Below are positions 13,276 through 54,659 of a stretch of DNA of 64,000 nucleotides, piece by piece. The stretch is from contig LGRX02003529.1 of assembly GCA_001247695.2 (NCBI GenBank), forward strand, positions 1 through 64,000, in the 5' to 3' direction. Source of the stretch: Cymbomonas tetramitiformis. Lineage: Eukaryota > Chlorophyta > Pyramimonadophyceae > Pyramimonadales > Pyramimonadaceae. The translations under genes were made by a program, and so were the position numbers. The notes beneath the pieces were generated by a model. That model ran no database searches and was not told the origin of the DNA. It saw nothing but the letters and a program-made list of their open reading frames with translations. Each line of letters opens with the position of its first letter. Position 1 is the stretch's first letter.

Positions 13276-13911
13276 TTAGCTACATACGTGACTGGCCTGA
13301 AATGCTTCCATTACTGCGTTCGCAAGGTCGGCAACATTTCGAAGATGTAGTATGGTATCGTGATTACCGGGCACCATTGCAATGTTCATCACTTTTTTAC
13401 ACCACTTCTGGTTCACCTCGGACAGGTTCGCTCTAAGATTCTCAGAGGCACAAATGGTAGTCACATCGCACGCAACATGATTTTGCGGTAAGTACGCCAT
13501 TGCAGCATCCATGCAGTGCCTAATGTGCACTACAGTTGATAGCACTGCTGATTCCCACTCGTGTTGCGGAATATTTTCCGGCACTTCCATTGCCGATGCA
13601 AATTCTGAGAGTGTGACAGGCTGGCATCCCATTCGGTAGCGTGTCAAATACTTGGCAAATAGCTTCAAAGGAATTGGACCCAAGTCCACGATCCCCTCAA
13701 CTGGTCCATCGATGAGCACCAGGTGTTTTACTGCTCGCGCGCCTAGTTGTGATGAAAGCTGACACACAATCTCGAATGCTGGACGACATCCAAAGCTATA
13801 TCCCGCCACGCAGTATGGCCCCGCTGGTTGGATAAATCGCATCGCCTGTATGTACAGGTCCGACATTTCCTGCATGGACTCCGCCAACTCGTCAACATAC
13901 AACAAAGCTGC
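13276..13911 (-). CDS. Giant PKS, exon 4: thioesterase core and C-terminus
   Basis: The last exon encodes most of a type I alpha/beta-hydrolase thioesterase. It shows a Q-P-A-G-P-Y segment, then G-Y-S-F-G with the nucleophile serine (about 13788-13803), L-I-D-G about 27 residues later for the acid, and G-N-H-D-T-I with the catalytic histidine (about 13340-13370). It ends in TAA at 13276-13278. The start at 13911 is set by the acceptor attgag/GCA, which is in phase 0 with the donor at 14069 and places Y-V-D-E-L-A-E just where thioesterases have their helix before the nucleophile elbow. The domain should hydrolyse the finished chain from the upstream ACP. After a sulfotransferase, it should act on a beta-sulfated thioester and trigger decarboxylation. 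The exact acceptor is inferred. Confidence 0.9.
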   Translation of the reverse strand, partial: AALLYVDELAESMQEMSDLYIQAMRFIQPAGPYCVAGYSFGCRPAFEIVCQLSSQLGARAVKHLVLIDGPVEGIVDLGPIPLKLFAKYLTRYRMGCQPVTLSEFASAMEVPENIPQHEWESAVLSTVVHIRHCMDAAMAYLPQNHVACDVTTICASENLRANLSEVNQKWCKKVMNIAMVPGNHDTILHLRNVADLANAVMEAFQASHVCS

Positions 13912-14069
13912 CTCAATCGTGCAACAAGCCAATCATACAACAAGTTGTTGTTGTATGTCGATCACAACACCTTGGCCGCCTATATTTTGTTTCACAAAGT
14001 GAAGGCAGGCAACATGTCCTAAGCGGCAATGCTACTGTCCGTAGGATGAGGGGAAGAAGTACATCGTAC
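13912..14069 (-). other. PKS intron 3 (158 bp)
   Basis: The donor is GTGCAG/gtacga (14069) and the acceptor attgag/GCA (13912). Both neighbouring frames are in phase 0 and the intron contains in-frame stops, so splicing is required to keep the thioesterase in one piece. Confidence 0.75.
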
Positions 14070-14286
14070 CTGCACAGTCTGGCATGTGAGCAAAGTCTGT
14101 CGCGATAGCCGTAGAGCGAAACATGGTCTCTGCAAGTGCTGGCTTAAGTGGGTGAGATTTTCCACATAGCCCGAAACATCGTGCACAATGAAAATGGGAA
14201 GGCCGGAGGTGCAGGTGTTCAAACGGCAAATCTCAGCTGGGGCAGCTGCTGCGAGTTCCGGAGATTTCCACTTTGGTATTGTATAT
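14070..14286 (-). CDS. Giant PKS, exon 3: thioesterase N-terminus
   Basis: A short exon with the first strands of the thioesterase: L-P-I-F-I-V-H-D-V-S-G-Y, the usual oxyanion-side strand and turn, then a helix and R-P-C-F-A-L. The 3' end uses donor GTGCAG/gtacga at 14069. The 5' end is most simply the acceptor gcaaacag/A at 14287, which fits the two leftover bases of exon 2. A second acceptor (gaccag/C, exon start 14346) is also in phase and would add 20 residues. The length chosen (217 nt) keeps the four exons a whole number of codons. Confidence 0.8.
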
Positions 14287-14560
14287 CTGTTTGCAACCCA
14301 AGCCAATTCCCCTTCAGATTGCCCGGGGAAGAGAATCATAATACAGCTGGTCATGGTCGTTGTCCCATGTCCAGTATATCATCTCTCCTCGCATGCTGAG
14401 TTCAGAACTCTGTTATAATCAGTCACGATGAACCTCAAGGACAAGTCATTCTGCTCGCTCTCTGCTTTGCGGTGCAAAGATTAGTTGCATTGCTGGCGAG
14501 CAACAGGAGATAGCCGGAATGGAAAGCGGGGAGAAACGCGGATCTGGGCAATGCACTCAC
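14287..14560 (-). other. PKS intron 2 (274 bp, or 214 bp with the other acceptor)
   Basis: A strong donor CCTTGG/gtgagt sits at 14560, directly before an in-frame TGA that would otherwise end the protein after the sulfotransferase. Acceptors at 14287 or 14347 restore the frame into the thioesterase. Reading through would give a protein ending in a sulfotransferase without a thioesterase. Confidence 0.8.
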
Positions 14561-17500
14561 CCAAGGTTCATGCTGACCGACCGCGTCATCACTTGAGGCG
14601 GGCTAGGCACATGCGCAGTTTGCCATGCATCCGCCAGACTGGGGTCGATGGCGTGGTGCTTCATGACATCGGGGTGCATTGTGGCAATGGCATCGGCGGC
14701 CTGGAATAGGGCCCTGTTGTTGTTGGCGTAAGGGCTGCACATTGCTGGGTCAAACGGGAGCCCGATCATTGCACAGATCCGTCGGAGTTGCGCCTCGGGG
14801 TCGCGCACAAGCTCTTCGTACCGCAGTGCCACCTGCCTCTCCACAGGCACGTCCTGCAAGAACTCCAGCACGTTCGCGTTTGCCTGCGTCCAGTGGGCCT
14901 CCTGGGCTGCCCACGTGGCGCTCTCGTGCTCCACGGGGGCCTCGACTCCGAGCAGCAGCAACTGCTTGATCCGTAGCCTCACAGAAGACGCGATGGCAGC
15001 CGCCGGGTGCCGCGTCAGGTGCACATAGCGTGGGGACTCGAAGTACAGCTCCGCTTTGCGCATCGTGGCGAGGTCCATGACCATCGTTGGCGACTTATCT
15101 ACCAGAATCTGTGGCGACGCTGCGCTCTGAAGCTGGCGGTACACCTCCTTGATGGGACAGCCCGAGGCTGCCATCTGGGCCTCCAGTCCGCGCGCCTCTG
15201 CCAACGAAAGCCCCTGCAGGTGCATGAATGCTTGCAGCAGGCCCTCGTTCAGCCCCAGGGCCTGCACGACGGGGGCGCGCTGCCCCGCTGTTGCAAACTG
15301 GAGCAGGTGCAGCTCCTGCGGTGCGAAGAGTGCAGGGTGCGCATTCAGGCACAGCTGAAGCAGGCTGGAACCGGAGCACGTGCTCGTCAGAATGAAGAGG
15401 GCAGTCGGAAGCTTGTAGGGCAAAGGCGCCTCTATCCTGTTCGCTTCTGCGGTGTTGGCCAGGTGTGCGTCCTCAGCCGCCCTGTGTGCAACCGCCTCGC
15501 TATGCAGGATGCTCGAGAGGAAAGCGTCCCTGGCGTCCGCACCCACCGCAGCTCCGTCGCATGCCAGCTGGATGTCCACGTGCTGCACTAGCTGGGTGAG
15601 TGTCGGGTCGGTCATCAGGAGGTCAGGCACCAGGGACACTCCGAACATGTGCTGCACGTTGTTTCGGAGCTCCACTGCTGTGATGGAATCGATCGTGATG
15701 CCTGCTTCGCCCACCACCTCGCTCAGGGGTATCTCCTTCGAGATTGTGCCTGTAATTCCAAGAGCGTCCTTGATCAGAGTGGAAAGAGATTGCATGAGGT
15801 ACCCCGCGCGAGCCTCCGGATCCCACGATGTGAGGTCTGCCGCTCCAGGTGTCCCAGAGGGGAACTGAGCACTGCTACTCGTTGCAGGGCCGTGTTGGCT
15901 TGGAGGAGTGCTGGCATGAATAGGCACTGCATATGCTTCCGAAGTATCCGTAGGCTCGGAGGCGTCTTCGGGCAAGGAGCCCCGGTGCACACCGTTTGAT
16001 CGACCAATCCGGGTCCAAGAGAGGATGTGGCTGGCTAGGAACGATGTCTGCGTCGGCGCGGGTGATAGCTGTTGCGTGGTCGTCACCGACGTGGCGCTGA
16101 ATTGTGTCATCACTGGTTGTACGAGGCAGGCCAATGCAAGGAGGCCCTGCTGCACGGAAAGCAGCCCCACGCCGTGCTTAGCCATCCGACCAAGCACCGC
16201 CTGTCTCTGGTGGGCAGCCATCCCGATGCCGGCCCATGGGCCCCACTGCACTGTGATCCTGGGAAGTCCTCTGCAGCACTCCAAATTTGCCCAGGAGTCG
16301 ATGGCAGCGTTCGCAGCGGCGTAGTTGGCCTGGCCAACGGAGGTCACCACGGAAGCCATCGACGTGAACTCGCACAGCATTCTTACAGGGTGTGGCGCGC
16401 TTGTGCGGGTGAGTTCCGCGTGCCCCGCCACCTTCGGAGCAGCGACGTGGTTCATCCCCCCGGCACTCTGGTTCAGCAGAAGAGCGTCCTCAATGTACCC
16501 ACTGAGGTGGAACAAACCGTCCAGGGTCGGGGCAGCACCGCTTGTGGCCGTGATCTCCCTCCCTTGGCGCTGAAGTGCATGCTCCACATCCTCGGCAAAC
16601 GCCACATCGCACTGCAATGCGCAGATTGCCGTCGCATCGCTCTCAAACTCAGGGACCTCGAGACGTGGCAATCTTGCCGGCGTGACATAGCCACGCGTGT
16701 TGCGGCCGAGAAGGATGGCGCGGGAAACGTGCAGCTCAGATAGCCACCTTGAGACCAACAACCCAAGCTCGCCCATGCCCCCGCTGATGCCGACTGAGCC
16801 GCACTTGGGCGAAGGCAGTGCAACTTGACAGCCCGTCGTAGGGCGCATTCTCAAAAGGGAAGTCTTGCTCGAGCCCGTGGCGGCGCTGTGAGCGGCGCTT
16901 TGCAGACTGACACAAGAACGCGCCGCACTGCTGCAGTCCACCGCCCTGGACGCCACGTCAGCCTCTGCCGAAGTGGCATAGAGCATGGATTGTAGCATGC
17001 TCATCGAGACCTTGTGGCCCGAAGCAGCAGTACTGCAAACCGGATCCAGCGCCCCTCCTGACGCGCTGCTGGCATCGCAGCCCTGTGGATACTCCAGACG
17101 GTGTGCTGTGCAAGCGTGGGCAGCTTGAAGCAGGAGCAGAGAGCCCTGCGCCACCCTTGTCCCAGCATGCTTCATGTGCCAGCTCTGCATGCCGCCCTGA
17201 AGTCCGACCCGTGAGGCCCATGGCATTGCGGTATTGTTGTATCTGAGCAACGCTGAGGCAAGTGTCGTCTGAAGCAGGACGACGTTCAGCGAATGGCGGC
17301 CGGCCGCCCTGTTGACCTCTGGCCTTTGCTCTGCCACCCGCTCGGGCGGAAGTGCTTGCCACACGCTGCAATAAACAAAAGGCTCGACGCACTGATGGAA
17401 GGGAGGAGGCTCCGAGGTAGGAGAGAGGGCGTATGCGTTGCCACGAGCATGGGGCGCTGTTCGAATGACAAGAGCTTTCAGCTGAAGCAGCACGGATTCC

Positions 17501-20500
17501 TGGGACTCAGCGTGCCAGTCCTGGGTGCTGCCATTGCCGTTATCCTCGAAAAGGCAGTGCAGGTCGACGCGTCCAAGACGTGTACGCGCGTTGCACCCTG
17601 CATAGCTCTGCAGCGTGAGCGGCATGGAAATCCCGATTGCGCTCATATCACAACCATCTCTGAGGAGGCCCAGAGCAGAGGTGGGCAGTGACCCAAGAAG
17701 GCACATGCGGCCATCGCTTGGGCGCCAACCTCTCATCCTCACCGCTTGCCCGCGGGGGCAGGGTATTTGCCCGCTGCCCGCAGGAATTGCCCTGAACGCG
17801 CAGTGCAGCCTCTGCGTCGCCCTGCACGATTTCTCGGTCACAGCTACCTTAGATGGATGACCCAAGTCATGACTCGCCAGCAGAGCACCTCCTGGTACAC
17901 AGCGCTCGACTATGGTCGCAGAATGACTCGCTGTTAAGAAGGCCACAGTGCCCTGGAGCAAAGCAGGCACAGAGATCGCAGGAGTGGGCGGGGCCTCGTT
18001 GGGTATATGCTGCACTGCAAACGTGCCACCAATAGCAAGCGAGCAGCGGAGACATGAGCTGTCAGGCGCGCGGGGCGAAGCAATCGTCTGGGAGAATACT
18101 GAATTGAACAATGCAGCGGACACTGAAGGGGTCAAAGGGTTGGCGGTTATCATTAGGGTCGCCCATGCAAGCGATAAGGGGACCAGGGCTGATGGGGCAA
18201 TGGAGCCAGACTCGTGCCGGTCTTGCACTTGGCAGTGCTCAAGGTGGCGTATTGGCATATCCACGACTACAGCCGACCCGAGTCCAACATCTGTGATGAG
18301 AGCAGCACGGATGGGGGATACCCCCGCTTCCATGGAAGGCTGAAGAAGCTGGCTCGGGCTGGCCACCCAATGGTTCTGCCGATGCCACAGATCTCTGCAA
18401 CCCCCTTTGCTGTCGTGTGGAGGGTGTGGACACGGCGTCGTGGCATGAAGGTGCGAGCAAGCATTGGTGCCCTGGAAGGCGAAGCCACTGGTGCATGCGA
18501 CGCGCTCCATTTGTGTGCGGCTCGATGCGAAGCAGTCAAAGCCAGAAAGTGATGGAAACGGTGCTGGAGTACGGCAACAATTCAGGTTCTGTGGCTCAAG
18601 TGATCCCCACGCTGACACAACGTGTGAATTCAGGAAACGTAAATGATGCATAAACACATGAGATTCAGACGTAAGCTCTCTGACTACTGCAGAAATGCTT
18701 CTCACCCCGGCGGCAGTCTCCGTGTGCCCTACCGCAGACTTCACTGCCCCCAGAACCAGCGATGACCTGCGCCCGCCGCGATTCAGCACCGCTGCGGCCG
18801 CCCCGACCTCGATCGGATCGCCCAGCGCTGTGCCCGTCCCGTGCATCTGCAGAGTCTCCACCTCGCTGCCCGCCCGCCCTGCCCTCGCCAGTGCAGCTCG
18901 CATCACCTGCTGCTGGGCCGGGCCGTTGGGTGCGGTGAGCGAGCTGGAGCGCCCGTCCTGGTTCACGCCGGTGCCCGCAACCGCCACGCCTGTACCCACC
19001 GGCATCTCGTCCGTCATCAGGACATCACTTGCCATCATCACCATCACGCATGCCTCACCCCGCACATACCCGTCTGCATGCGCATCCAGGGTCTTGCATC
19101 GGCTGTCCGGCGCGAGCATGCCGGCGGAGTGGAACACCGCCGTGGTGTGAGGAGTAAGCATCAGGCTCACTCCGCAGCTGGCTGCGCGGGAGCTGTCACC
19201 GTGCGCAATGCCCGTGCAGGCATGGTGCGTGGCCACGAGGGATGACGAGCACGCCGTGTCGATGCTCATGGCCGGACCTTGCAACCCAAAGACGTATGCC
19301 AGGCGCCCAGCTGCCACACTGAGAGTGTTGCCAGTGCCCATGTAGGGGCTGATGGCATGCTCACTGGCAGTGATGAGCTTGGAGTAGTCCGTGCTGGCTA
19401 TGCCCACGTACACCCCCACAGTTGCTGCGGTGACCCGGCTCAGTGACACGTGTGCAGCTGATGGCAGCATCGTGTCTTGCTTATGGTGCTGCGACCCAGC
19501 AGCAGTACTGTCGCACAAACCGCTCCACATGGACTCGAGCAGCAGTCTGTGCTGAGGGTCCATCATCTGTGCCTCATGCGGCCCGATGCCAAACACCTGC
19601 GCATCAAACATGTCCACGTGTGGCAGCATTGCCGCGCATCCCGGCACCAGGCTCCCGCCGCCACCGCTGCCTGATGTCTGTGTGCGCAGCAGGTCAGCGT
19701 CCCAGCGCTCTGCGAGCACCGGCTGCACTCTGTCGGTGTTGCTGTACGGCATCCCCGATCGATCATATGAGTCAGACTGGCATGCCTCCCAGTCTGCCAC
19801 CGCGGTGATGACGATGGCACTCCGGGCACCATCCTCAGTGCTGCCCGTCTTGTCTAGCGCGCTTGTGCCCAGCGATGCCATCTCCACGCCATGGGAGTCC
19901 TCATCACCACTGCCGTGCGCTCCCAGCTGGCTCTGCACATACCCCACGATAGCCGCAGCCGTGGGGTAGTCAAACACCACCGTCACAGGCAGCTCCACAC
20001 CCGCAACACTCTCGATGGCGCTCTTCAGCTCCATGGCCCCGAGGGAGTCCAGCCCCGCATCCATGAGGGGGTCATCCTCACCCACATCAGATCCGATCAC
20101 ACCGTGCACAGCCGCCATCACCTCTGACTGCAGGCTGGCGCGGAGTTTGTGCTGTGTGCTGTGGCTGGGAGCAGGCTGCCACGCACCGACACCTTGCACG
20201 CCCTCGGTGCCACCGATGCGACTGAGATTGGCCTCCTCTGTGAACTCCGCAAACATCTCCGGGACTGTCTTCATCCCATGCAGGAGTACGGGCCAGTCGA
20301 ATGGGCTCGCCGTCAGCAGCGGGCCTGCAGGCATGGCCGTGCCCTGCCGCCACTGCGCCCCCGCCAGCGCACCCTGCAGAGCGCTCAGCCCCTGTGCAGG
20401 TGTGAGCACACCCATGCCGTACCTGGCCATGCGCGCCAGGGTGGCACTGTCTTGGGTGGCCATGCCCCCGGCATCCCACGCGCCCCACTGGATACTCATC

Positions 20501-23500
20501 GCCATGGAGCCCATGTGGTGCTGCTGGTGTGCCCAGGAGTCCAGCCCGGCGTTGGCCGCGGCATAGTTGGCTTGGGCCGGAGAGCCCATGAGAGCAGCGA
20601 TGGACGAGAATGCCACCATGACGTGCTGGGGGCGAGCGGCGAGGGAGGCAAGCATGTTCGGCAGGGTCTGCAGCTTGGGAGCAAAGACCTCGCGGACGCT
20701 GCCTGCGGTCTGGTTGGGGATGAGGGCGTCCCTCAGCACACCTGCGGCGTGGATCATGCCGCAGGCCTGCATGTACTGCTCACGCGCGCCTCGACCTGCT
20801 GCAGTTGCGGGGCGGGGCCTCCTTGCGCCCATGGGAGCACTGCCGAGCATCGCAGCCCGGACCTCCTCGGCACTCGACGTGTCGCACCGGAATATCTGCC
20901 GCGGCGCCGTGCACGCTTGGCGCATGGTGTGGTGTGGATGTGCGGATGGGGTGGGTGCGGCTGTGCCAGACAGCCTGCCGCTGCGCCCGAGCAGCTGCAC
21001 CTGTATGCTGCCACCGTGCCCATCCAGCCAGCTCCCCACCAGCCACCCCAGGGCCCCCAGCCCGCCCGTCACAGCCACCGTCTCCCCACCAGCCTTGGAG
21101 CCGCTCCAGCACCGCACCCTTGTGTCCACCACTGTGCGCCCGCATAGCCGGGGTGCCTGTCCCCGAGCCACGTGCCGCAACGCTGCCTGATATCCCGTGT
21201 GTATGGCGCTGTTGGGCCCATGGTTCATCAGCACTGCTCCAGTGAGGAGGCTGCCGGCCAGGCCGCCGCCGCCCAGTGCCAGGGTGCATGCCAGGTCTCG
21301 CATCGCTGAGCACACGGCACTCACGGCTGCCAGCTCGTGCGCCACCGCCATGGTACACACGTCGGGCCTCTCCATACGGGTGAGGCCCTCGCTCCAGCCT
21401 ACACCAGCCCCGTGCCCGAGCCGCACCACCTGCCCCCCCGCGGCCAGCACACTCAGCTCCAACGCAGCAGAGCCCATGCCGAGGCCGGAGGGCATCATGC
21501 TGAGCACGGTGTGCGGGGCTCCCGTCATGGCGCGGCTCCGCGATGCACCAGCATGGGAGGCGTGTGGCAGAGTGGAAAGCAGCTCCGTGTCACGGGAGCC
21601 TCCAACGTGCTGCACCCCGCAGAGTGAGCGGAGCACGCCCCGCTTCGAGGGGGAGCTGGCCGTGCAGCTCAGCTCGATGCCATGTGCGGCGCTCAGGAAG
21701 TGGACGGTGGCGAGCCCCACGCTGCTGCTGCTGCCGCCTCTGCCCATCACGACCAGCATGCGGCTCGAGGTCAGGTGGCCCTGAGGAACACGCTGCAAGG
21801 CGAGGTGCGCGGTGAGGCAGGGGGTGGGGAGGGCAGCGGCGTGCTGGTAAGGCAGGCAGAGGGGCTTGGGGCACATCATGCCAGGGGCCACAAGAGCGGT
21901 GCAGGAGTTTGGGGAGTATGATGGTGCGAGCCCCATGAGCATGGTTCCTTGGCTGAGGGCATGTGGCGCGGCGCCTGCGAAGCTTGGGAGCACGTTGAGG
22001 ACGCCACAGACGTCGACGGAGGCTGTGGTGGGCTGAGCGACAGCAGATGCCGCCGACGTGAGAGTGGGAATCAGATCGACCGCGCTGAGTACGCAAGCCT
22101 TCACGTCGATCATCGCCGATCCCTCAGTTTCTGCATGGCGCTGACTGTTCTCTCTTTCACGGTATTCTTTGTCCTCGTGCACATTTCTCATATATGTATG
22201 TAACAGCCTTGGGACTTCAAGAGCAGTCAATGGTCGCACCCTATGGTTTTCGTTGTCATCGGATATCGGGGTCACACGAGATAATGCTTGCTCACGAGAA
22301 TGCATTGCCGCGGTATGATGCGTCACTTGCGCAACTGAAAAAGTCATCTGTGGTCTCTCTTGGGAAGCACTTCGCATCAAGCCAATTAGAGAGCTGTCTG
22401 CCATCTGTGTATGGGTTCTATCAGCACTGACTCCAGTGCAACAAAACATCGTCATTCTGGCAGAGACTTGGTGGGTGGGGTGCTCCAGCAACATACCCTG
22501 CCACCACTGCATATGGGCGGTGATTGTGGAGGATGGCTGGTAGCGGGTTCCTGCATTGCGAAGGGGAGCCCAATGTGTGAAGGGAGCGGTTAGCAGATCT
22601 CTGTCAAGAGACTGCTTGGGAGGCGCAGTGCTGACAGTTGGAGGAGCGATGCAGAACTTGCAGCCGCCATCCTCCCGCGTGCTTTGCTGCCAATCCCTGC
22701 ACGTCTGCCAGGCAATGCTGTATATCCGGCACACACTTGATGAGGGAGTGCCCATGCCCCTCATTGGCCTGTGAGAGCGCTCCTCAACGGAAACACCTGG
22801 CTGTCCACGGACGGCTTTGGATTCCATATCGTGGAGCATTGCAACCACCCCTTCACTGTGGCTGATAAAAAAGTGGGAGGAACAGACTGCAGCGTCCAAG
22901 GAGGGGCGAGCGTGCAGCCCTGCAGCCGCAAGGTCGAGCCCACACTGTGGCTTAAGCCAGCTGGAGAAGGCGCGCATTGAGGCTGGCACTCGGAGCGCGC
23001 TGGCACCAGGCCCCACATCAGATTGCGCAGCTTCAGCAGGCACTGAGGCAGCCACGGTGAGCTGCATTGCGTTATCGAGGCATGCGGCCTGCTGTGGCCA
23101 TTCCGGCATGGATCGCCATGGCGAGGGTCCCAAGCATCCAATCGCAAACCCAACATATGGGGCTTGCTTCGACGTGCATCCTACAGGGGCCTGATGCTCC
23201 CAAGCACTGCACTGCAGATTCATCACGAGCGATAAGGCTGCTGGATGGAAGCTCCCAGTCCCATAAAGCGCCCCTCCTCTCTGTGGGCCCTGCCAATGAT
23301 GCCGAGCATCCCATTGCGCAGGCACAATCGTCCTCAAGGAAGCTGTACAATGCTGCTGTGCCGAACGAGCGCTTTCTGCCAACTCGGACACGACACGCAG
23401 GGTGCCTGCAACAGCGCTGCACAGCGCTCGCCACTTCAGCGGTGATCGGGATCCTGCCCCATGGAGCCGAAGTGGCGTTTGCAGCACGATGTCAGAGAGA

Positions 23501-26500
23501 GCGCCAAGGCTGTCGCGGGCCTTGAGGTCGGCCATAATGCTGCACCCCATCTCGAGATACCCGGCCCCGGGGAACAGGGCGGTTCCAGCAATCTGATGAT
23601 CTAGGAAGCAAGAGAAGAACAGGTCATGTTCCCGCTGTTGAAACTCGCAGATGACAGCTGCTCGATCTGCAGAGACCGTGGCTGCGCATAGCCGACTCTG
23701 GCTGGATGCAAGGGACCAGTGACTCTGCCGGAAAAATACACGCTCGAGCAACCACGTGTCTGCGCGAGATTCTGCTATGTCCTGCATATGAGACAGAGTG
23801 GCGTGCCCGTTGGTTCCTTGAAACGCAAATGCACTCAAACTGGCAATCGTGATCGAAGTTGGTGCGGCCCCAAAAGCTTGTCTGGGAAAGTTGACACTGT
23901 CGTGCAGAGTGACCTGCGGAGTAACGAAAATCAAGTGCGGATTCCAAAAACGCATATGAACCAACACGCCAGAGGAATGTCGTAAGCAGGACTGAGCGAC
24001 GGCATGCAAGCTTCTCGCCCCAGCAGCGGTCTCCGTGTGCCCTACCGCAGACTTCACTGCCCCCAGAACCAGCGATGACCTGCGCCCGCCGCGATTCAGC
24101 ACCGCTGCGGCCGCCCCGACCTCGATCGGATCGCCCAGCGCTGTGCCCGTCCCGTGCATCTGCAGAGTCTCCACCTCGCTGCCCGCCCGCCCTGCCCTCG
24201 CCAGTGCAGCTCGCATCACCTGCTGCTGGGCCGGGCCGTTGGGTGCGGTGAGCGAGCTGGAGCGCCCGTCCTGGTTCACGCCGGTGCCCGCAACCGCCAC
24301 GCCTGTACCCACCGGCATCTCGTCCGTCATCAGGACATCACTTGCCATCATCACCATCACGCATGCCTCACCCCGCACATACCCGTCTGCATGCGCATCC
24401 AGGGTCTTGCATCGGCTGTCCGGCGCGAGCATGCCGGCGGAGTGGAACACCGCCGTGGTGTGAGGAGTAAGCATCAGGCTCACTCCGCAGCTGGCTGCGC
24501 GGGAGCTGTCACCGTGCGCAATGCCCGTGCAGGCATGGTGCGTGGCCACGAGGGATGACGAGCACGCCGTGTCGATGCTCATGGCCGGACCTTGCAACCC
24601 AAAGACGTATGCCAGGCGCCCAGCTGCCACACTGAGAGTGTTGCCAGTGCCCATGTAGGGGCTGATGGCATGCTCACTGGCAGTGATGAGCTTGGAGTAG
24701 TCCGTGCTGGCTATGCCCACGTACACCCCCACAGTTGCTGCGGTGACCCGGCTCAGTGACACGTGTGCAGCTGATGGCAGCATCGTGTCTTGCTTATGGT
24801 GCTGCGACCCAGCAGCAGTACTGTCGCACAAACCGCTCCACATGGACTCGAGCAGCAGTCTGTGCTGAGGGTCCATCATCTGTGCCTCATGCGGCCCGAT
24901 GCCAAACACCTGCGCATCAAACATGTCCACGTGTGGCAGCATTGCCGCGCATCCCGGCACCAGGCTCCCGCCGCCACCGCTGCCTGATGTCTGTGTGCGC
25001 AGCAGGTCAGCGTCCCAGCGCTCTGCGAGCACCGGCTGCACTCTGTCGGTGTTGCTGTACGGCATCCCCGATCGATCATATGAGTCAGACTGGCATGCCT
25101 CCCAGTCTGCCACCGCGGTGATGACGATGGCACTCCGGGCACCATCCTCAGTGCTGCCCGTCTTGTCTAGCGCGCTTGTGCCCAGCGATGCCATCTCCAC
25201 GCCATGGGAGTCCTCATCACCACTGCCGTGCGCTCCCAGCTGGCTCTGCACATACCCCACGATAGCCGCAGCCGTGGGGTAGTCAAACACCACCGTCACA
25301 GGCAGCTCCACACCCGCAACACTCTCGATGGCGCTCTTCAGCTCCATGGCCCCGAGGGAGTCCAGCCCCGCATCCATGAGGGGGTCATCCTCACCCACAT
25401 CAGATCCGATCACACCGTGCACAGCCGCCATCACCTCTGACTGCAGGCTGGCGCGGAGTTTGTGCTGTGTGCTGTGGCTGGGAGCAGGCTGCCGCGCACC
25501 GACACCTTGCACGCCCTCGGTGCCACCGATGCGACTGAGATTGGCCTCCTCTGTGAACTCCGCAAACAACTCCGGGACTGTCTTCATCCCATGCAGGAGT
25601 ACGGGCCAGTCGAATGGGCTCGCCGTCAGCAGCGGGCCTGCAGGCATGGCCGTGCCCTGCCGCCACTGCGCCCCCGCCAGCGCACCCTGCAGAGCGCTCA
25701 GCCCCTGTGCAGGTGTGAGCACACCCATGCCGTACCTGGCCATGCGCGCCAGGGTGGCACTGTCTTGGGTGGCCATGCCCCCGGCATCCCACGCGCCCCA
25801 CTGGATACTCATCGCCATGGAGCCCATGTGGTGCTGCTGGTGTGCCCAGGAGTCCAGCCCGGCGTTGGCCGCGGCATAGTTGGCTTGGGCCGGAGAGCCC
25901 ATGAGAGCAGCGATGGACGAGAATGCCACCATGACGTGCTGGGGGCGAGCGGCGAGGGAGGCAAGCATGTTCGGCAGGGTCTGCAGCTTGGGAGCAAAGA
26001 CCTCGCGGACGCTGCCTGCGGTCTGGTTGGGGATGAGGGCGTCCCTCAGCACACCTGCGGCGTGGATCATGCCGCAGGCCTGCATGTACTGCTCACGCGC
26101 GCCTCGACCTGCTGCAGTTGCGGGGCGGGGCCTCCTTGCGCCCATGGGAGCACTGCCGAGCATCGCAGCCCGGACCTCCTCGGCACTCGACGTGTCGCAC
26201 CGGAATATCTGCCGCGGCGCCGTGCACGCTTGGCGCATGGTGTGGTGTGGATGTGCGGATGGGGTGGGTGCGGCTGTGCCAGACAGCCTGCCGCTGCGCC
26301 CGAGCAGCTGCACCTGTATGCTGCCACCGTGCCCATCCAGCCAGCTCCCCACCAGCCACCCCAGGGCCCCCAGCCCGCCCGTCACAGCCACCGTCTCCCC
26401 ACCAGCCTTGGAGCCGCTCCAGCACCGCACCCTTGTGTCCACCACTGTGCGCCCGCATAGCCGGGGTGCCTGTCCCCGAGCCACGTGCCGCAACGCTGCC

Positions 26501-29500
26501 TGATATCCCGTGTGTATGGCGCTGTTGGGCCCATGGTTCATCAGCACTGCTCCAGTGAGGAGGCTGCCGGCCAGGCCGCCGCCGCCCAGTGCCAGGGTGC
26601 ATGCCAGGTCTCGCATCGCTGAGCACACGGCACTCACGGCTGCCAGCTCGTGCGCCACCGCCATGGTACACACGTCGGGCCTCTCCATACGGGTGAGGCC
26701 CTCGCTCCAGCCTACACCAGCCCCGTGCCCGAGCCGCACCACCTGGCCCCCCGCGGCCAGCACACTCAGCTCCAACGCAGCAAAGCCCATGCCGAGGCCG
26801 GAGGGCATCATGCTGAGCACGGTGTGCGGGGCTCCCGTCATGGCGCGGCTCCGCGATGCACCAGCATGGGAGGCGTGTGGCAGAGTGGAAAGCAGCTCCG
26901 TGTCACGGGAGCCTCCAACGTGCTGCACCCCGCAGAGTGAGCGGAGCACGCCCCGCTTCGAGGGGGAGCTGGCCGTGCAGCTCAGCTCGATGCCATGTGC
27001 GGCGCTCAGGAAGTGGACGGTGGCGAGCCCCACGCTGCTGCTGCTGCCGCCTCTGCCCATCACGACCAGCATGCGGCTCGAGGTCAGGTGGCCCTGAGGA
27101 ACACGCTGCAAGGCGAGGTGCGCGGTGAGGCAGGGAGTGGGGAGGGCAGCGGCGTGCTGGTAAGGCAGGCAGAGGGGCTTGGGGCACATCATGCCGGGCT
27201 CTAAGAGCGCGATTATTTCCGTACACCTGCCCATTCCAAGCACGGAATCTCCGATGTTTATTCTTGACGCTTGCTTTTTTATTTGCCTATCCGTCTGCGA
27301 AACATATCCTGAGACGTCGGTGATAGATTTGTTTAAGTTGCTGCAGTTTGCACTCGTCAGCGCAAGCACAATCTCACTTGCTGTCAGCTGTTGACTGACA
27401 ACTGTGACAACATCTAGATGCTTTTCCCAGCGTAACATTTCCCAATTAGTAGCGGTATGTTGCAGGTTTATCGCAAGACCCTTCTTCGTTTGCATCGCGA
27501 CGCCTGCAGCCTCCAAAAGTCTGGGCACACTGCACACAGCTCCCTCCCATGCCACATGGGAAGCGGTCTCTGCATAACATGCTTGCGATGTTGACTCGGG
27601 GGTACTGTTGATGCAATCGTTCCGTTCGGTCCTCCATGCGACTTGTTGATTTTCCTGGGCGGCTGTGCGAACAAGCCCACATAAAGCTTCGTTCGGGGAG
27701 AAAGGAGTGCCTGCAACATGCAAGGCCAGAGCGTTCCCCAGGCCGCGCAGCATCCCACCAGACGTAGCTGCCGTCACACCGACGGCGGCGCTCACACACC
27801 GCAGTAGATCTAGACAGCGGACTCGATCCCGAGACGACATGTTGAGTGGCGTGCCACTTCGGTGTCCTCCAAACGTACACGGTGACCCGCGAAGCCCTTT
27901 ATGCAGACTGGTGGGAGCGATGACCGTGCTATCATGGTGGCTAGGGGACCTTGCGGCGTGCACCCACCCTTCAGAGGGCCGTGGTCGCTGCCTGCCGGGA
28001 TCCGGGCAAGCCACCTGCAACAAAGATGTGTACAAGTGCTGGCTCATGGTACCAGGAGGCAGCACTGCACGCGAAACCTCTCGGGGCACCCGTGCTCGGT
28101 GCAGCACCTTTGCTTGGAGTCCACAGATTTCTGCCATGGCGCCTGGGTCATCACTTAGCACGTAATGCGAGCTCACAATGGGTGAGGTGTCGCACCACAC
28201 TTCGGCGGCTGAGACTGCAGCCACCCAATGCCGATGTTTGTGCACGGCAGCGCGCGTGCTGTATGCCGCAATCGCGGCAGGTACCCGCAAAGGCACGGCT
28301 GCAGCGCGATCCATGGGCAGTGGGACTGAGGCGGTGGCAAGCTGCATCGCATTGTCCAGCACTGCAGGGGCGCCTGCCAAATACCAGTCTGCCTGGTGGA
28401 GCACATGCTCATTCTCCGTTACGCCAAACACGCATCTGCCCGTTGACAGGCTGCAAGCGGGCGTGGTGAGTGTTTGGATCACGGCCTGGCCTCGCTGCTC
28501 CCACCGGGCCGGCCTGGAGTCCATGTCCCAAAGATCCTGGGTCATCCCCAGAGCGTGTCGTACGCACACCACCTTGCCAGAGGCGTGCGTATGACCTCCC
28601 AGCGGACTCTGCAAGGAGGCCAAAGGCGGGTTGAGGCTGCTGATATCCAATTGACCGCAGTGGGAAAGTGTGACGCTGACCGCATCACGCGAACCTGAAG
28701 TCAACTCGCATGGCAGAGGGAGCACTAGGCTGATCAAAGCACAATCTGCAGCTGTGGAACGAGGTGCGTCGGAGGCCATCAGTAGCCTGCAGGCGTCATG
28801 CCCGAGATGCAGGTAGCCGGCGCCAGGGAACAACGCTCTCCCCACAACCCGATGGTGGTACACGTCCGCCAGCCTCGGAGCATCGTGAAGCAGGGCTTGC
28901 AGCTGGAGAAGGGAGCTTGAGAAAGCCGGCACACCATGCACAGTGATCCACGCCGATCTGGGCGCGGCGTCAATCCATGCTCTCGCGTGCTCCCAGGTGC
29001 GCAAGCCCGCCATCTTCAGTTGCGCGCTCGGCGCAATGCCCGCGCTCGTGACTACCGCTTGAGCATTTGTGCCCTGGAAAGCAAAGGAGCTGACTGCAGT
29101 AACAGTGGCCGCTGCACGAAGACAGCAGCTACCGCGCTGCATTGGTGTAGACAGCCGGCCTGAGCGGGAACCTAGCTGATTTGTGAGGATGCTTGCGACG
29201 TAAGCGTTGGGTGATCGTAGATGCTGAATATGAAGTGCACCACCATCACAACGTGCTGCAATGGCGGCAAGAAGGCCGTTGATGCCTGCTGCCGGCTCCG
29301 AATGCCCGACGTGCGATTTCATGGATTGCAGTGGGACAGTGTACGGTCCGGATGCATGCGGCACCAGCTTCCCAAGGTCAGCCAAAACTCCACTGATAGC
29401 ACCAACCTCAATCGGATCGCCCAATGCCGTTCCCGTGCCGTGCATCTCCACCGCAGCCAAAGTGGCAATGTGCCCTGAGCCAGCCTGATGAAGGGCAGCC

Positions 29501-32500
29501 TCGATTACCTGCTTCTGGGCCGGGCCGTTTGGAGCAGTCAGAGAGCTTGCTCGACCGTCCTGATTTATTGCAGATCCAGAAATGAACGGCGGTTCAGCTC
29601 CAATGGATGTAGAGGTCAGCGAGCGATTTCCGTGGGAAGAATGGACAATTGCCGTGACACACGCTTCACTGCGCACGTAGCCGTCCGCAGCGCTGTCCAG
29701 CGTCTTGCACCGCCCATCGCTGGACAGCATGTTGGCGCTGTATATCATCATACTTGCGTGGGGGGTCAGAATCAGGTTGACCCCACATGTCATCGCCGAC
29801 CGGCATTCCCCGCCCACCAGGCTCCGGTGTCCCAGGTAGGTGCCCACGAGAGAGGACGAGCACGCAGTGTCCACACTCACAGCAGGCCCCGTCATGCCAT
29901 ACAGGTATGACAGCCGCCCCGACACCACGCTCACCCCCGTGCCCGTGGCCATGTACGCACTCATGGCTCCGAGCTGGCTCGATGTGATGACTTGGTTGTA
30001 GTCGGGCGCATACACCCCAACGTACACCCCCCACTTCCCGCCACCGTCTTGGCTGCCTGCAGCTCTTCTAGAGGCGGGGGTATGGCTACTGTCGCCGCTA
30101 TTGACCGAAGATGCGGCTTGCGCCTTCCAGCTGCACTCCAGCAGCAGCCTCTGCTGAGGGTCCATGAATGACGCCTCAGTAGCCCCTATCCCGAAGCACG
30201 CCCCGTCGAACATGCTCACGTCACGCACAAAGCTGCCAAAGCGCGGGCCCACCCCGGAAATGTGCGGGCATGGGGTGTCCACATCCCAGCGATCCAAGCT
30301 GACTATCGATACCGAGTCGACACTTCTTGCTGATGCATCTAGTTCTTGGTCATCCACTGAAACTCTCTGGCAAACAGCAGTCATATCAAAGAAGCAGATA
30401 TTTGTATCACGCAGCCCGTCCTGTTTGGACTGGGCTGCCACCTGAAGCACATCACCGGTGCCGTCATGTGGACTGTGGCACATCTGCTCTTCCAAGTGGC
30501 AGACGATGGAGTCTATAGAGGGATAGTCGAAGACGACAGTGACAGGAAGGGTGACCTCGAGGGACCTTTCTATGCCGCTCTTTATCTCGATTGCACTCAG
30601 AGAGCCCAATCCAGAGTCCATCAAGGGCGCATCTTCGTTGATTTGAAAACCGCACACGTGCTCAATGGCCTGGTTCACCTTTTGACGTATAACACCTTGC
30701 GTCATGCACCCCTTGACGTCATTTGGCTCTTGGACCGAGTGTGTGCCGATCTCGCTGCTTTTCACAGCGCCTCCCAAAGATGGTGATGATGCAGCATTAT
30801 CCAAATAAAGGTGCCCAGCCTCGGGAAATGTCTGCCGCAGTAGAGGCCAGTCGAATGGGCTCACCATCAGCAGCGGGCCTGCAGGCATGGCCGTGCCCTG
30901 CCGCCACTGCGCCCCCGCCAGCGCACCCTGCAGAGCGCTCAGCCCCTGTGCAGGTGTGAGCACACCCATGCCGTACCTGGCCATGCGCGCCAGGGTGGCA
31001 CTGTCTTGGGTGGCCATGCCCCCGGCATCCCACGCGCCCCACTGGATACTCATCGCCATGGAGCCCATGTGGTGCTGCTGGTGTGCCCAGGAGTCCAGCC
31101 CGGCGTTGGCCGCGGCATAGTTGGCTTGGGCCGGAGAGCCCATGAGAGCAGCGATGGACGAGAATGCCACCATGACGTGCTGGGGGCGAGCGGCGAGGGA
31201 GGCAAGCATGTTCGGCAGGGTCTGCAGCTTGGGAGCAAAGACCTCGCGGACGCTGCCTGCGGTCTGGTTGGGGATGAGGGCGTCCCTCAGCACACCTGCT
31301 GTATGAAACATCTCTACGTCCGAAGGAGTTCGGAATCTAGTGTCCCCCCACGTGGATGCTGTGAACTCGGCAGCCACGGAAGTGTCACACCTGTGAACGT
31401 GACAGGGGTGTTTGGAATGCCTCAGTCGGTTTTCGGGGGTGCAAGATGATTGGAAGCGCCCACTGCGTGCTAAGAGTGTGACGTGGTGCTCCTTGGCACG
31501 CATCACCCAGCAGGCGACAAGCCTCGCTAGTGCCCCAGTCCCTCCTGTGATGGTTGTGGATCTCTGGATGTCACAGCACGGAGAGTCTGCTCGGTTGTAC
31601 ACCGAGCTGCAGGCGGTGACCATATGGCGAGACACCGAGAGTCCCTGGCGCTGAGCATACAGCTGACCATTTATCTCACGCCTCGGAGCATGCGCGAGGT
31701 TCGCTTTGGCACTGGATGTTGCATCCAAATCGAGCACCTCAGTGGTGACTATAGAACTGTCCTGACCAGCTTGGCGGAGAGCGGCCAAGACGATCTCTCC
31801 AGGCGCAGCGTCAGCAGCCCGAGCCGCGGAATTCCACGAATCGTCATTCACCAATGAATTGACCATGGTGATCGAGAAGGGCTGCGCAAGCTGCACAGCA
31901 TGTAGTGATGCGGCCACGCTGAAAAATCGCGTATGAGGATGCATGCCCCTACTTAAGCACACCATGCGAGCTCCACGGTGCTGCGCAGGGCGAAACAGAG
32001 CGCAACGGAGTGCATTGCAGCCATCAGCTCCTCCAGCAGGCATGCCAGGCTTTCGCTGTCTTCCTAACCACACCACTTTGTATAGGATCTGAGGCTGCGC
32101 TGTGCTCTTTGCCATTGGATAGCTGTGCCTGTGTGTACGACTGTGAGTGTACTGGACATCGCTGAGTTGACTAACAGTGCCAAGCGCTCCTGCATCCAAC
32201 TGTATATATACGTGTTCCTGTGCCCGAATTTTGATTGCCCCTGTGAAAGCACCTCTTGCAGGGCGCCCGTCTGACCACACCATGTGTGCTGCCGCCATAG
32301 TAGGGGAATGTCCGAGTCTCATCTGAGCTGGTAATGGCCATCCGTCTGCACCAAGAGGGCTACCCGCCAGTTGTCCACAATTCTCGGTGACGGCGGATCG
32401 TAAACCAAGAGTGCTACATGTCGGCAAGCGTCCCGTCACAAGGAGCTTAGTCACAAAAGTTGGAGATATGTGGCTGATTGAGGCTGCGCAAAGCTTTTTT

Positions 32501-35500
32501 AGCAAGCGCGTGGCGCCTTCCTGAACGATCGACCGTGTGCGGGGCACCATCTGCACCTCCACTGCATCGGGCACGGTGCGTGGCTGAAAGGACGTCGAGT
32601 ACCCCGAGCAGCATGCTGATGTGGCTGACAGACCAATGCCGCACTTTTGGACTGGCACAGGAGGATACATGTGCCATCTGGCACTTGCATAATCTGATTG
32701 CATGCATAGAACGGTGAGCTTCTCATTTGCATCTGCGTGCTCCCGTGGCAGTAGGCACGGCATTGAGAAATGGCATTCGGTCAGGGCAAATGCAGCAGGA
32801 GAATAGGTAGCACTGAGAACGGATGTAAGACCATACTGAGCGATGTCAAGCAATGAAGGATTGTCAACAAGGTACCCACTGCGGTCATGGTTGACACGTC
32901 GGATGCCCATCCAGTCAGACAGACGCATCGCAAAATCAATTTTAAATTGAAGAGTGGAAATGGTAGTGGCGTTGAAAATGAAATAACGGCCTAAAGGCGC
33001 ATTGGTGGAGCCGGTCCAATAAGAACAGTGCTGCCGAGAACGAATCTCTGAAAGAGAGCTCACGGTAGCGAGGGAACGCATAGAAACGGGATGACCGCTA
33101 AGCGCAACGTGCACGTTGGTGCCCTGAAACGCAAAGGAGCTTCCTGTCAGCAGTGAGGACTCGAAGCGGTTGTGTCCCAGCGTTGCTTTGCAAATATTCA
33201 TTGCGACACTGTCGGACGTTGCAGCGTGCCCAGATGGCTGCGCCACAGAGGAAAGATGCTCGTTTAGTTGGCGAAGGTGCAATATTCCCGTGCATGCCCC
33301 TACTGACATGCTTCGCACGAGCTGCTGAACACACCTCGCCCCAGCAGCGGTCTCCGTGTGCCCTACCGCAGACTTCACTGCCTCCAGAACCAGCGATGTC
33401 CTGCGCCCGCCGCGATTCAGCACCGCTGCGGCCGCCCCGACCTCGATCGGATCGCCCAGCGCTGTGCCCGTCCCGTGCATCTGCAGAGTCTCCACCTCGC
33501 TGCCCGCCCGCCCTGCCCTCGCCAGTGCAGCTCGCATCACCTGCTGCTGGGCCGGGCCGTTGGGTGCGGTGAGCGAGCTGGAGCGCCCGTCCTGGTTCAC
33601 GCCGGTGCCCGCAACCGCCACGCCTGTACCCACCGGCATCTCGTCCGTCATCAGGACATCACTTGCCATCATCACCATCACGCATGCCTCACCCCGCACA
33701 TACCCGTCTGCATGCGCATCCAGGGTCTTGCATCGGCTGTCCGGCGCGAGCATGCCGGCGGAGTGGAACACCGCCGTGGTGTGAGGAGTAAGCATCAGGC
33801 TCACTCCGCAGCTGGCTGCGCGGGAGCTGTCACCGTGCGCAATGCCCGTGCAGGCATGGTGCGTGGCCACGAGGGATGACGAGCACGCCGTGTCGATGCT
33901 CATGGCCGGACCTTGCAACCCAAAGACGTATGCCAGGCGCCCAGCTGCCACACTGAGAGTGTTGCCAGTGCCCATGTAGGGGCTGATGGCATGCTCACTG
34001 GCAGTGATGAGCTTGGAGTAGTCCGTGCTGGCTATGCCCACGTACACCCCCACAGTTGCTGCGGTGACCCGGCTCAGTGACACGTGTGCAGCTGATGGCA
34101 GCATCGTGTCTTGCTTATGGTGCTGCGACCCAGCAGCAGTACTGCTGCACAGACCGCTCCACATGGACTCGAGCAGCAGTCTGTGCTGAGGGTCCATCAT
34201 CTGTGTCTCATGCGGCCCGATGCCAAACACCTGCGCATCAAACATGTCCACGTGTGGCAGCATTGCCGCGCATCCCGGCACCAGGCTCCCGCCGCCACCG
34301 CTGCCTGATGTCTGTGTGCGCAGCAGGTCAGCGTCCCAGCGCTCTGCGAGCACCGGCTGCACTCTGTCGGTGTTGCTGTACGGCATCCCCGATCGATCAT
34401 ATGAGTCAGACTGGCATGCCTCCCAGTCTGCCACCGCGGTGATGACGATGGCACTCCGGGCACCATCCTCAGTGCTGCCCGTCTTGTCTAGCGCGCTTGT
34501 GCCCAGCGATGCCATCTCCACGCCATGGGAGTCCTCATCACCACTGCCGTGCGCTCCCAGCTGGCTCTGCACATACCCCACGATAGCCGCAGCCGTGGGG
34601 TAGTCAAACACCACCGTCACAGGCAGCTCCACACCCGCAACACTCTCGATGGCGCTCTTCAGCTCCATGGCCCCGAGGGAGTCCAGCCCCGCATCCATGA
34701 GGGGGTCATCCTCACCCACATCAGATCCGATCACACCGTGCACAGCCGCCATCACCTCTGACTGCAGGCTGGCGCGGAGTTTGTGCTGTGTGCTGTGGCT
34801 GGGAGCAGGCTGCCGCGCACCGACACCTTGCACGCCCTCGGTGCCACCGATGCGACTGAGATTGGCCTCCTCTGTGAACTCCGCAAACAACTCCGGGACT
34901 GTCTTCATCCCATGCAGGAGTACGGGCCAGTCGAATGGGCTCGCCGTCAGCAGCGGGCCTGCAGGCATGGCCGTGCCCTGCCGCCACTGCGCCCCCGCCA
35001 GCGCACCCTGCAGAGCGCTCAGCCCCTGTGCAGGTGTGAGCACACCCATGCCGTACCTGGCCATGCGCGCCAGGGTGGCACTGTCTTGGGTGGCCATGCC
35101 CCCGGCATCCCACGCGCCCCACTGGATACTCATCGCCATGGAGCCCATGTGGTGCTGCTGGTGTGCCCAGGAGTCCAGCCCGGCGTTGGCCGCGGCATAG
35201 TTGGCTTGGGCCGGAGAGCCCATGAGAGCAGCGATGGACGAGAATGCCACCATGACGTGCTGGGGGCGAGCGGCGAGGGAGGCAAGCATGTTCGGCAGGG
35301 TCTGCAGCTTGGGAGCAAAGACCTCGCGGACGCTGCCTGCGGTCTGGTTGGGGGTGAGGGCGTCCCTCAGCACACCTGCGGCGTGGATCATGCCGCAGGC
35401 CTGCATGTACTGCTCACGCGCGCCTCGACCTGCTGCAGTTGCGGGGCGGGGCCTCCTTGCGCCCATGGGAGCACTGCCGAGCATCGCAGCCCGGACCTCC

Positions 35501-38500
35501 TCGGCACTCGACGTGTCGCACCGGGATATCTGCCGCGGCGCCGTGCACGCTTGGCGCATGGTGTGGTGTGGATGTGCGGCTGTGCCAGGCAGCCTGCCGC
35601 TGCGCCCGAGCAGCTGCACCTGTATGCTGCCACCGTGCCCATCCAGCCAGCTCCCCACCAGCCACCCCAGGGCCCCCAGCCCGCCCGTCACAGCCACCGT
35701 CTCCCCACCAGCCTTGGAGCCGCTCCAGCACCGCACCCTTGTGTCCACTACTGTGCGCCCGCATAGCCGGGGTGCCTGTCCCCGAGCCACGTGCCGCAAC
35801 GCTGCCTGATATCCCGTGTGTATGGCGCTGTTGGGCCCATGGTTCATCAGCACTGCTCCAGTGAGGAGGCTGCCGGCCAGGCCGCCGCCACCGCCCAGTG
35901 CCAGGGTGCATGCCAGGTCTCGCATCGCTGAGCACACGGCACTCACGGCTGCCAGCTCGTGCGCCACCGCCATGGTACACACGCCGGGCCTCTCCATACG
36001 GGTGAGGCCCTCGCTCCAGCCTACACCAGCCCCGTGCCCGAGCCGCACCACCTGGCCCCCCGCGGCCAGCACACTCAGCTCCAACGCAGCGGAGCCCATG
36101 CCGAGGCCGGAGGGCATCATGCTGAGCACGGTGTGCGGGGCTCCCGTCATGGCGCGGCTCCGCGATGCACCAGCATGGGAGGCGTGTGTCAGAGTGGAAA
36201 GCAGCTCCGTGTCACGGGAGCCTCCAACGTGCTGCACCCCGCAGAGTGAGCGGAGCACGCCCCGCTTCGAGGGGGAGCTGGCCGTGCAGCTCAGCTCGAT
36301 GCCATGTGCGGCGCTCAGGAAGTGGACGGTGGCGAGCCCCACGCTGCTGCTGCTGCCGCCTCTGCCCATCACGACCAGCATGCGGCTCGAGGTCAGGTGG
36401 CCCTGAGGAACACGCTGCAAGGCGAGGTGCGCGGTGAGGCAGGGTGTGGGGAGGGCAGCGGCGTGCTGGTAAGGCAGGCAGAGGGGCTTGGGGCACATCA
36501 TGCCAGGGGCCACAAGAGCGGTGCAGGAGTTCGGGGAGTATGATGGTGCGAGCCCCATGAGCATGGTTCCTTGGCTGAGGGCATGTGGCGCGGCGCCTGC
36601 AAAGCTTGGGAGCACGTTGACGACGCCACAGACGTCGATGGAGGCTGTGGTGGGCTGAGCGACAGTAGATGCCGCCGACGTGAGAGTGGGAATCAGATCG
36701 ACCGCGCTGAGTACGCAAGCCTTCACGTTGATAATTGCCAAAGATGAAGCATCTAAGTTTGTAGCATGCGGATTTTTCTTACTTAGATATTCCGCATGAC
36801 CCTCCTGCATTACCTCAGCGGGACTAGTCCTCTCCTCGCGAAAGAGCCTTATACAGTGATTGGTTGCACCATGGATTGCATCTTGCTGAGAAGCTGGAAT
36901 CTGATTCACTTGAGCAGAAAGTGCTTGCGGCCGCACTGGTATGGCAATGCTGTCCATCGCAAAATTACGTACTTCGACCTCTGGTGCCCCTGCAGACATA
37001 AGCAAGCTTGCTAGCCCCATCGGCTGCTTTTGGAGTGATGAGCGATGCGGCGCCAAAGCACCTCTGATCATATTGAAATCGCAGAGATGTACGATAGTGT
37101 GCACCGGGACCTGAGCCACGTTTTGAAGGATTGCAATTCCACCCAAGGATGCTGCGGTCGACTCTCGGGTGCTAATCAAGTGCTCCATACTACGTGGGTA
37201 GGTTCTGGTCCTCCCAAAGTCCTGCGCGCAGAATAGTGAGTGCGCCTCTACCGGGATGAGACTTTGCGGCAAGCCTGCAAGCGCTTCTACATCTCCAGTA
37301 CTCCTCGAAACCACTTCCGTTCTCCTCATGCATGGCTCCGGAGAAGTCCACAGCCATTTCAATCGATATAGGGTGTCACAGCTGCGTGCCCCAGACGATG
37401 TTGGAAGGGCTTTGCAGCGCACGGGCTTGCTAGCAGAGCCTCTGTTTGGCAACTCCTTTGTCTGCAGCGCTCTGATCTCCACGGCCACACGCGCGGATTG
37501 TGTCAGCACAAAATGCGAGGTGGTACAGAACTGAAGGGGATATCCTGCCAGGAGCGTCAAATCGGATGCAACGGAGGCATGCCTCCAGCGGCTATGTGCT
37601 CGGTCTGTGACTGAGTATGCCGCAAGCCCGACTGGGATGCTCAGCTTGCCATTCTTTTCTAGGTATTCTTTGTGCCCGGTTTCTGGAATGAGAGCGACGC
37701 TCAGCTGCATGCTTGTGTCGACCAGTGCAATTGCATGTTGATTGCGACTGCCCAAAGCTGCAAATGCGCATGGTACAGTCATGGAGTTGGCGAGTGGCGA
37801 GGCTGGACTCGTAGTGGCACTTTGGAGACATTGTGCAGCATCGCCGAAGCTATTCGTCCCACATTTCTCCAACATCCAGCTTACGTTCCTCTCGGGCAGG
37901 GGAGGGGAGTTTTGTTCCGCGTTGCAGAGGTTGGTTCTGACATATCCAGAGCAGTGAGTGACATGAATATCCTTTACAGGGAGCTTCTCAGCTGTTGAGA
38001 TCACTGAGATAGAGCCATTGCATAGAGAAAGGGAGATCGCGAGTATGGCGTGCGCGCGCTCTCTGCTCAGCTCACATGGCGCGATGATAACAATATCAGC
38101 AAGTGTTGACCTCAAGTGTTGCGCGTCCACGCCGTGCTGGGCGGAGAACATATATGCCGCGTGCGAGGCATACTCAAAGAATCCAGCACCAGGAAATAAA
38201 GGACGATGCATTACACGGTGGTCCAAAACATAGGAAGCACGCGTAAGCTGAGCTTCCAGGTTGACAGAATTGAATGCCAAATTAAATGATACACCTGAGA
38301 AGTTAAAAGTCTGCAAAGGGCGACACCATGTGTGTACGCGATCAAAGGATCTGAAGGAACTGTAATCAGTGCTGTAGTGGAACGTGTTATAATGCAGTGG
38401 GGCATGGCGTAAAACCACATTCACGTTGGTGCCCTGAAACGCAAAGGAGCTTCCTGTCAGCAGTGAGGACTCGAAGCGGTTGTGTCCCAGCGTTGCCTTG

Positions 38501-54008: not shown

Positions 54009-54659
54009 CTGCACGTTCGAAAAGATCTAATCAGTCAACAAAACTTTCTGAAATCTGCGCTTGGTTTTGAAGGAAACGGTGATTTGCTAGCTGAAAAGAA
54101 GCTTCCTGCCTCACAAAAGAAAGGCGGTAGTGCATAACCTCAGACAACGATAGAAACTTAACTCATCGTTTCTCATTCAGAAACCGTGATTCACGTGTCT
54201 CTTCAGCACAGATTTCACGACCTCCATAGCCGACCTATGGATTCGAGCTGAGGTGCTGATACAAAAGAGGGCGGCCGTGCGTGGGGGTATAAATAAGTGC
54301 TTCCAGGAACCAGGTTCCTTGTACTCATCCGTTTTAAAGTCGATTTCTCGCGGGTTGTGAAGACTTTTGAAAGCATGCACTTTCCCTTCATCTTGAATAT
54401 TGAATAATGACTTTGAGAATAGTGAAATGCGATGCAGCTCTTTTTTCGAGGAGGTAGAGCCCTACTCTTCCTCTTCGTCGGAAATGCGGAGACCGTCAGC
54501 TGATTTTTTCGTCCTTTCAATAGACTCTACTGCTTATTGTTTTTCAATGTTCTTCTCAGTCGAGTGTCGCTGTAGTCCTCTGAAGTCCTAAAGTCCTTGG
54601 GACTTTATAGCTCTAGTCCTTTAGTCCTAGACCTAGTGTAGTCCTAGACTATGGACTAA

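Follow-up and report, generated by a model that had tools for sequence, protein, structure and literature searches.

Does the giant polyketide synthase (PKS) gene in a 64,000-nucleotide stretch of the Cymbomonas tetramitiformis genome (assembly GCA_001247695.2, contig LGRX02003529.1, positions 1 to 64,000; hereafter the window) release its finished chain as a terminal alkene? A sequence-only reading of this DNA had proposed that it does, as the gene appeared to close with an acyl carrier protein (ACP), a sulfotransferase (ST) and a thioesterase (TE), the order found in the CurM and Ols enzymes, whose terminal-alkene chemistry is established (PMC3903477, PMC6274090). By analogy with these systems we hold terminal-alkene release to be the leading hypothesis, with a probability of about 0.4. 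According to it, the last module would leave a beta-hydroxyacyl-ACP, the ST would sulfate the beta-hydroxyl with 3'-phosphoadenosine-5'-phosphosulfate (PAPS) as donor, a fatty acid synthase (FAS)-like TE spliced onto the ST would hydrolyse the thioester, and the beta-sulfated acid would then shed CO2 and sulfate to give the alkene. We infer that the ST may be active despite a cysteine in place of an arginine in its PAPS loop, that a TE of non-CurM type may permit the decarboxylative elimination, and that the product itself would be a terminal alkene. The first parts concerned are these:

14557..54030, minus strand: long open reading frame (ORF) with the end of a ketoreductase (KR), an ACP, eight ketosynthase (KS)-containing modules and then the ST (Pfam)
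15481..19830, minus strand: terminal module, with KS at 18667-19740, KR at 16231-16797 and ACP at 15577-15714 (Pfam)
14561..15429, minus strand: sulfotransferase domain, assigned to the CurM/Ols lineage
15376..15378, minus strand: Cys codon of the 5'-PAPS loop (TCSGSS), Arg in 82/82 bacterial rows
14986..15012, minus strand: 3'-phosphate motif RHPAAAIAS, with its Arg and Ser retained

An ACP followed by a sulfotransferase was indeed found at the end of the 14557-54030 frame, and the number given to that carrier protein in the sequence-only reading, ACP10, agrees with the ten ACP matches present in the whole window. Searched against the PDB, the ST matched the CurM structure 4gbm at an E value of 4.7e-57 and the Ols structure 4gox at 4.6e-51, while the next match stood at 0.023. 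It is 36% identical to the CurM ST, and by BLAST it matched 80/80 bacterial loci, with 32-41% identity among the matches listed. These loci, on which the locus tallies below are based, are the 80 of 173 genome loci that came highest in likeness to the CurM ST, so that the tallies are no census. The domain yields a confident structure model and shares the CurM/Ols sulfotransferase fold, the likeness being seen by fold as well as by sequence; the single-sequence fold gave a mean pLDDT of 37.2. Judged by sequence and modelled fold together, the ST is clearly assignable as a specific relative of the CurM/Ols sulfotransferases. That the domain might be a stray sulfotransferase of cytosolic or membrane type, the outcome that had been named as fatal to the proposal, was set aside, since no other group of solved structures lies nearer. 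Used alone as query, the window ST picked out no relative in genome contigs or in viral contigs, and none was found when viral contigs were scanned with alignment A1.

The terminal module was likewise found as described, with a KR and no usable dehydratase (DH). It carries the motifs DTACSS, HGTGT, KSAVGHTE, GGMGELG, NYAAAN and TIDSI, and thereby keeps the KS Cys-His-His, the KR tyrosine and nucleotide motif, and the ACP serine. DH, enoylreductase and acyltransferase (AT) were all without a Pfam match in this module at E <=0.1, and the dehydratase motif HxxxGxxxxP was not found in it. The interval between KS and KR resembles other modules weakly, at the KS edge, and a hidden DH was set aside on the Pfam, motif and module-comparison results. 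With a KR present and a DH undetected, the domain content, which is all that is compared here, agrees with a last module that would deliver a beta-hydroxyl. Where an NxGH motif is expected the last KS reads KSAVGHTE; GHTE or GHSE was found in 8/8 KS domains of the long ORF, and the absence of NxGH proved to be a variant and not a loss.

A number of findings weigh against alkene release, and those within the ST concern its PAPS loop, its conserved columns and its place in the tree. Both PAPS motifs had been claimed for this domain; the 3' motif (RHP...S) is present, whereas the 5' loop reads TSTCSGSS in the window against Pro-Arg followed by GST in 82/82 bacterial CurM/Ols-type rows. The ST agrees with 55/88 conserved columns and differs in 33/88, two of them as gaps. 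Its branch is very long, at 3.6 changes per column, and the tree gives it no placement. It may be argued that the ST is impaired or dead, a structural remnant, and that the FAS-like TE releases the beta-hydroxyacyl chain by simple hydrolysis as an acid or by cyclisation as a lactone. The replacement of the loop Arg by Cys and the changed columns speak for this reading, as does the description of Lys614 in the corresponding loop of NDST1 as a catalytic acid (PMC3733922), and a TE of plain FAS or nonribosomal peptide synthetase (NRPS) type would suit it too. However, the ST frame is unbroken from end to end, the 3' motif, ELH and DKSP are retained and the model is confident, and Cys may be normal among eukaryotic relatives. 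The conservation of ELH and DKSP is partly built in, because the patterns by which the loci were found demanded one or other of these stretches. On balance we regard an impaired ST as a serious contender, not far behind alkene release, that nevertheless falls well short of probable. The case poses the question whether a PAPS loop without a basic residue can work.

The TE lies further down the same strand, in a frame in which codons for Ser, Asp and His are present, and it is predicted as follows:

14347..14560, minus strand: predicted intron 1, whose GTGAGT donor overlaps the TGA stop; alternative 14287-14560
14070..14346 or 14070..14286, minus strand: predicted TE exon 2
13912..14069, minus strand: predicted intron 2, donor GTACGA; other donors fit too
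13276..13911, minus strand: TE exon 3 (PF00975), with a predicted start at 13911, 13887, 13878 or 13869
13795-13797, 13708-13710 and 13360-13362, minus strand: catalytic Ser (GYSFG), Asp and His of the TE, the His placed by alignment

A thioesterase reached across two introns, with its Ser, Asp and His in place, had been reported; the residues were confirmed and sit as in other PF00975 TEs, while the intron borders are uncertain, several sites fitting the frame. For the donor at 14560 there are two frame-fitting acceptors, so that exon 2 would run from 14346 or from 14286. Intron 2 admits 11 frame-fitting donor-acceptor pairs, namely GTACGA with the four exon 3 starts and seven others. The Pfam score changes with the start chosen for exon 3, from 79.3 bits at 13887 and 79.2 at 13878 to 73.6 at 13869 and 71.0 at 13911, and the match to the FAS TE varies likewise, at 7.1e-14 from 13869 and 5.1e-10 from 13911 with the longer exon 2. 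The last frame alone (13276-13932) matches PF00975 at an E value of 2.9e-17, and the spliced forms match at 2.7e-19 to 6.3e-22. That ST and TE belong to one polypeptide is therefore a prediction, made from frame-fitting GT-AG introns. One could suppose instead that the TE is a separate gene beginning at the in-frame ATG at 14354 (MTSCIMILF...), which lies past the last in-frame stop, and that the PKS ends at the TGA at 14557-14559 directly after the ST; a G+C content at third codon positions of 0.522 and 0.505 in the TE exons, lower than the 0.773 of the ST exon, is in keeping with such a division. We give this arrangement a small chance, as the GTGAGT donor coincides exactly with the stop codon and can be joined in frame to either of two acceptors downstream, the ST and TE parts are only some 200 bases apart, and the order ST-TE is that of the bacterial fusions.

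The family of the TE is a further point on the unfavourable side. The window TE matched PF00975 at 70.7 bits (cut-off 26.4) and no other family at E <=0.1. Its top PDB matches were fatty acid synthase thioesterases, the animal FAS TE being closest, and the CurM TE, 3qit, was absent from the 23 and 24 PDB matches obtained at E <=10. As a control, the TE of the Moorena locus (L001) retrieved 3qit at 1.5e-186. The controls were best matched by Abhydrolase_1, the Moorena TE at 109 bits (3.9e-31) and that of an olefin synthase (L062) at 116.9 bits (1.6e-33); the former also passes the PF00975 cut-off, at 32.5 bits (1.3e-7), which speaks against a clean split between the two families. TEs of both kinds are alpha/beta hydrolases. 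Compared with the bacterial TEs, the window TE was nearest to those of L072 (1e-10), L061 (2.5e-10) and L079 (4e-7), while the best CurM-type TE stood at E 0.11. Because the PDB, Pfam and bacterial-TE comparisons, with their controls, set it apart, the window TE is, as judged by sequence, a member of another family than the CurM and Ols TEs. The profile comparison with CurM and Ols domains that had been suggested for this gene end thus came out differently for its two halves, the ST finding 4gbm and the TE leaving 3qit unmatched.

We then asked what this type of ST adjoins in bacteria. A CurM-type TE was present in the same ORF as the ST in 68/80 loci; 67 of these match over at least 100 residues, that of L075 being cut short, and GHSxG or GQSxG is present in 65 of the 68. 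In three of the 80 (L061, L072 and L079, all Hydrogenedentota) the ST is followed by a PF00975-like TE, as assigned by Pfam for L072 and L079, in which the order is KS-AT-KR-ACP-ST-TE. In 7/80 an NRPS condensation domain comes next after the ST, either in the same ORF (L041 and L073) or in the following one (L032, L056, L067, L070 and L071), and in L056, L067, L070 and L071 the next ORF carries a TubC-like docking domain. These seven loci stem from Chloroflexota and Hydrogenedentota, and the ST stands mid-assembly-line in them, not at the end. They tell against an alkene in the window, the more so as one of them, L070, is the best BLAST match of the window ST (41%). Of the remaining loci, L069 shows a TE of CurM type in a different frame (judged by eye) and L021 is truncated by the contig end. 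By sequence comparison, then, an ST of this type does not by itself foretell decarboxylative alkene release, and its presence alone would allow no alkene prediction, as another TE (3/80) or a condensation domain (7/80) may adjoin it. The CurM/Ols terminator would thus come apart into its two halves, in the window as in bacteria, the ST occurring without its usual TE, and terminal alkenes should not be predicted from an ST domain alone.

Where the ST stands before a condensation domain, no immediate decarboxylative release is possible, and the same could hold for the window: the ST would be active and the sulfate retained, giving a polyketide acid sulfated at the beta position or in some other way, since the TE would be without CurM-type elimination machinery. 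The unlikeness of the TE to the CurM/Ols family fits this outcome; that elimination needs a special TE remains an assumption, however, and we find a retained sulfate decidedly unlikely. Returning to alkene release, the claim that the same chemistry operates here kept two of its supports, the lineage of the ST and the module for a beta-hydroxyl, and lost two, the TE family and the Arg of the PSB loop. Because of these two losses and of the seven condensation loci, it is not carried by domain order alone. The fuller proposal, a eukaryotic nuclear megasynthase that joins a Cys-loop ST to a recruited FAS-like TE and in which the ST, and not a CurM-type TE, would define alkene release, seems to us rather unlikely as a whole. 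The case opens to direct test the question of how a giant PKS in a eukaryote could produce a terminal vinyl group.

Among known systems, CurM (curacin A; PDB 4gbm and 3qit) resembles the window in having ACP-ST-TE after a KR module. It differs in its TE, the window TE matching PF00975 only and the Moorena TE best matching Abhydrolase_1, and the window further has the PAPS-loop Cys for Arg, an AT-less giant gene and probable introns. The cyanobacterial olefin synthase Ols (PDB 4gox) also has, unlike the window, a TE best matched by Abhydrolase_1 (L062), and it is described as starting from fatty acids via a FAAL domain (PMC3903477), whereas the window encodes a line of many modules. Haliamide is reported as a further ST-TE case, with an ST 41% and a TE 37% identical to those of CurM (PMC6274090). 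The three Hydrogenedentota loci resemble the window in that a PF00975-like TE comes after their CurM-type ST, but they keep the Arg loop, L072 and L079 have an AT inside the module, and the ST tree does not group the window with them.

In eukaryotes, a PKS bearing an ST is already in print. An Emiliania huxleyi PKS described in 2020 combines a sulfotransferase with a KR module and three reducing modules (KB864225, going by the legend order; PMC7073580); as so described, it is like the window an algal modular PKS with a KR module and an ST. The sentence describing it mentions no TE, and the word "alkene" has 0 occurrences in the main text of that paper. The statement that no example was known from a eukaryotic nuclear gene accordingly holds for the full ST-TE order only. 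The AT-less multimodular PKSs of chlorophytes (PMC4661987) are described as giant, without integrated AT and with module duplications, as in the window, and "sulfotransferase" or "sulphotransferase" has 0 occurrences in the main text of that article. Among the literature matches listed, which cover titles and the starts of abstracts and include few subscription papers, none dealt with a FAS-like TE coupled to an ST, and none with the release of an alkene from a PKS of a eukaryote.

The long ORF forms 13157 codons in one uninterrupted frame, running from 54030 to 14557. Its eight modules each have KS, KR and ACP (Pfam), and DH matches were noticed in four of them, of which two clear the family cut-off and two fall short of it. 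No AT match was found by Pfam in any of ten pieces at E <=0.1. The gene is an AT-less multimodular PKS, in which an N-terminal AT is possible, as the gene start lies beyond the window. It has one large neighbour upstream:

57039..63998, minus strand: upstream ORF of 2319 codons that runs off the window edge, with KR, ACP, KS and the beginning of a further KR

Because the 13157-codon ORF begins with a KR tail (20.1 bits, under the family cut-off of 22.6), the two ORFs are probably one gene with an intron of about 3 kb between them. The gap itself (54031-57041), probably an intron, holds three direct-repeat families that are 97-98% identical. Within 15481-53340, modules share 98-99% protein identity over 389 to 760 residues, one pair sharing 755 residues and another 389, which would point to gene conversion or duplication in the recent past, or to an assembly risk; module duplication is known in algal PKSs (PMC4661987). 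That the window stems from a bacterium or a virus was set aside, since a giant gene without AT and the probable presence of introns favour a eukaryote.

Scans of the window for tRNA genes and Rfam families gave zero matches. Elsewhere in the window, an inverted repeat at 5469-5808 has 165-base arms, 99% complementary and 10 bases apart, and a tandem repeat at 7574-8244 and 8508-8614 has three copies at a spacing of 260 bases and a related piece downstream. About 1.7 kb past the end of the TE, an ORF on the plus strand (11008-11565) encodes a CCHC zinc knuckle and is possibly part of a retroelement.

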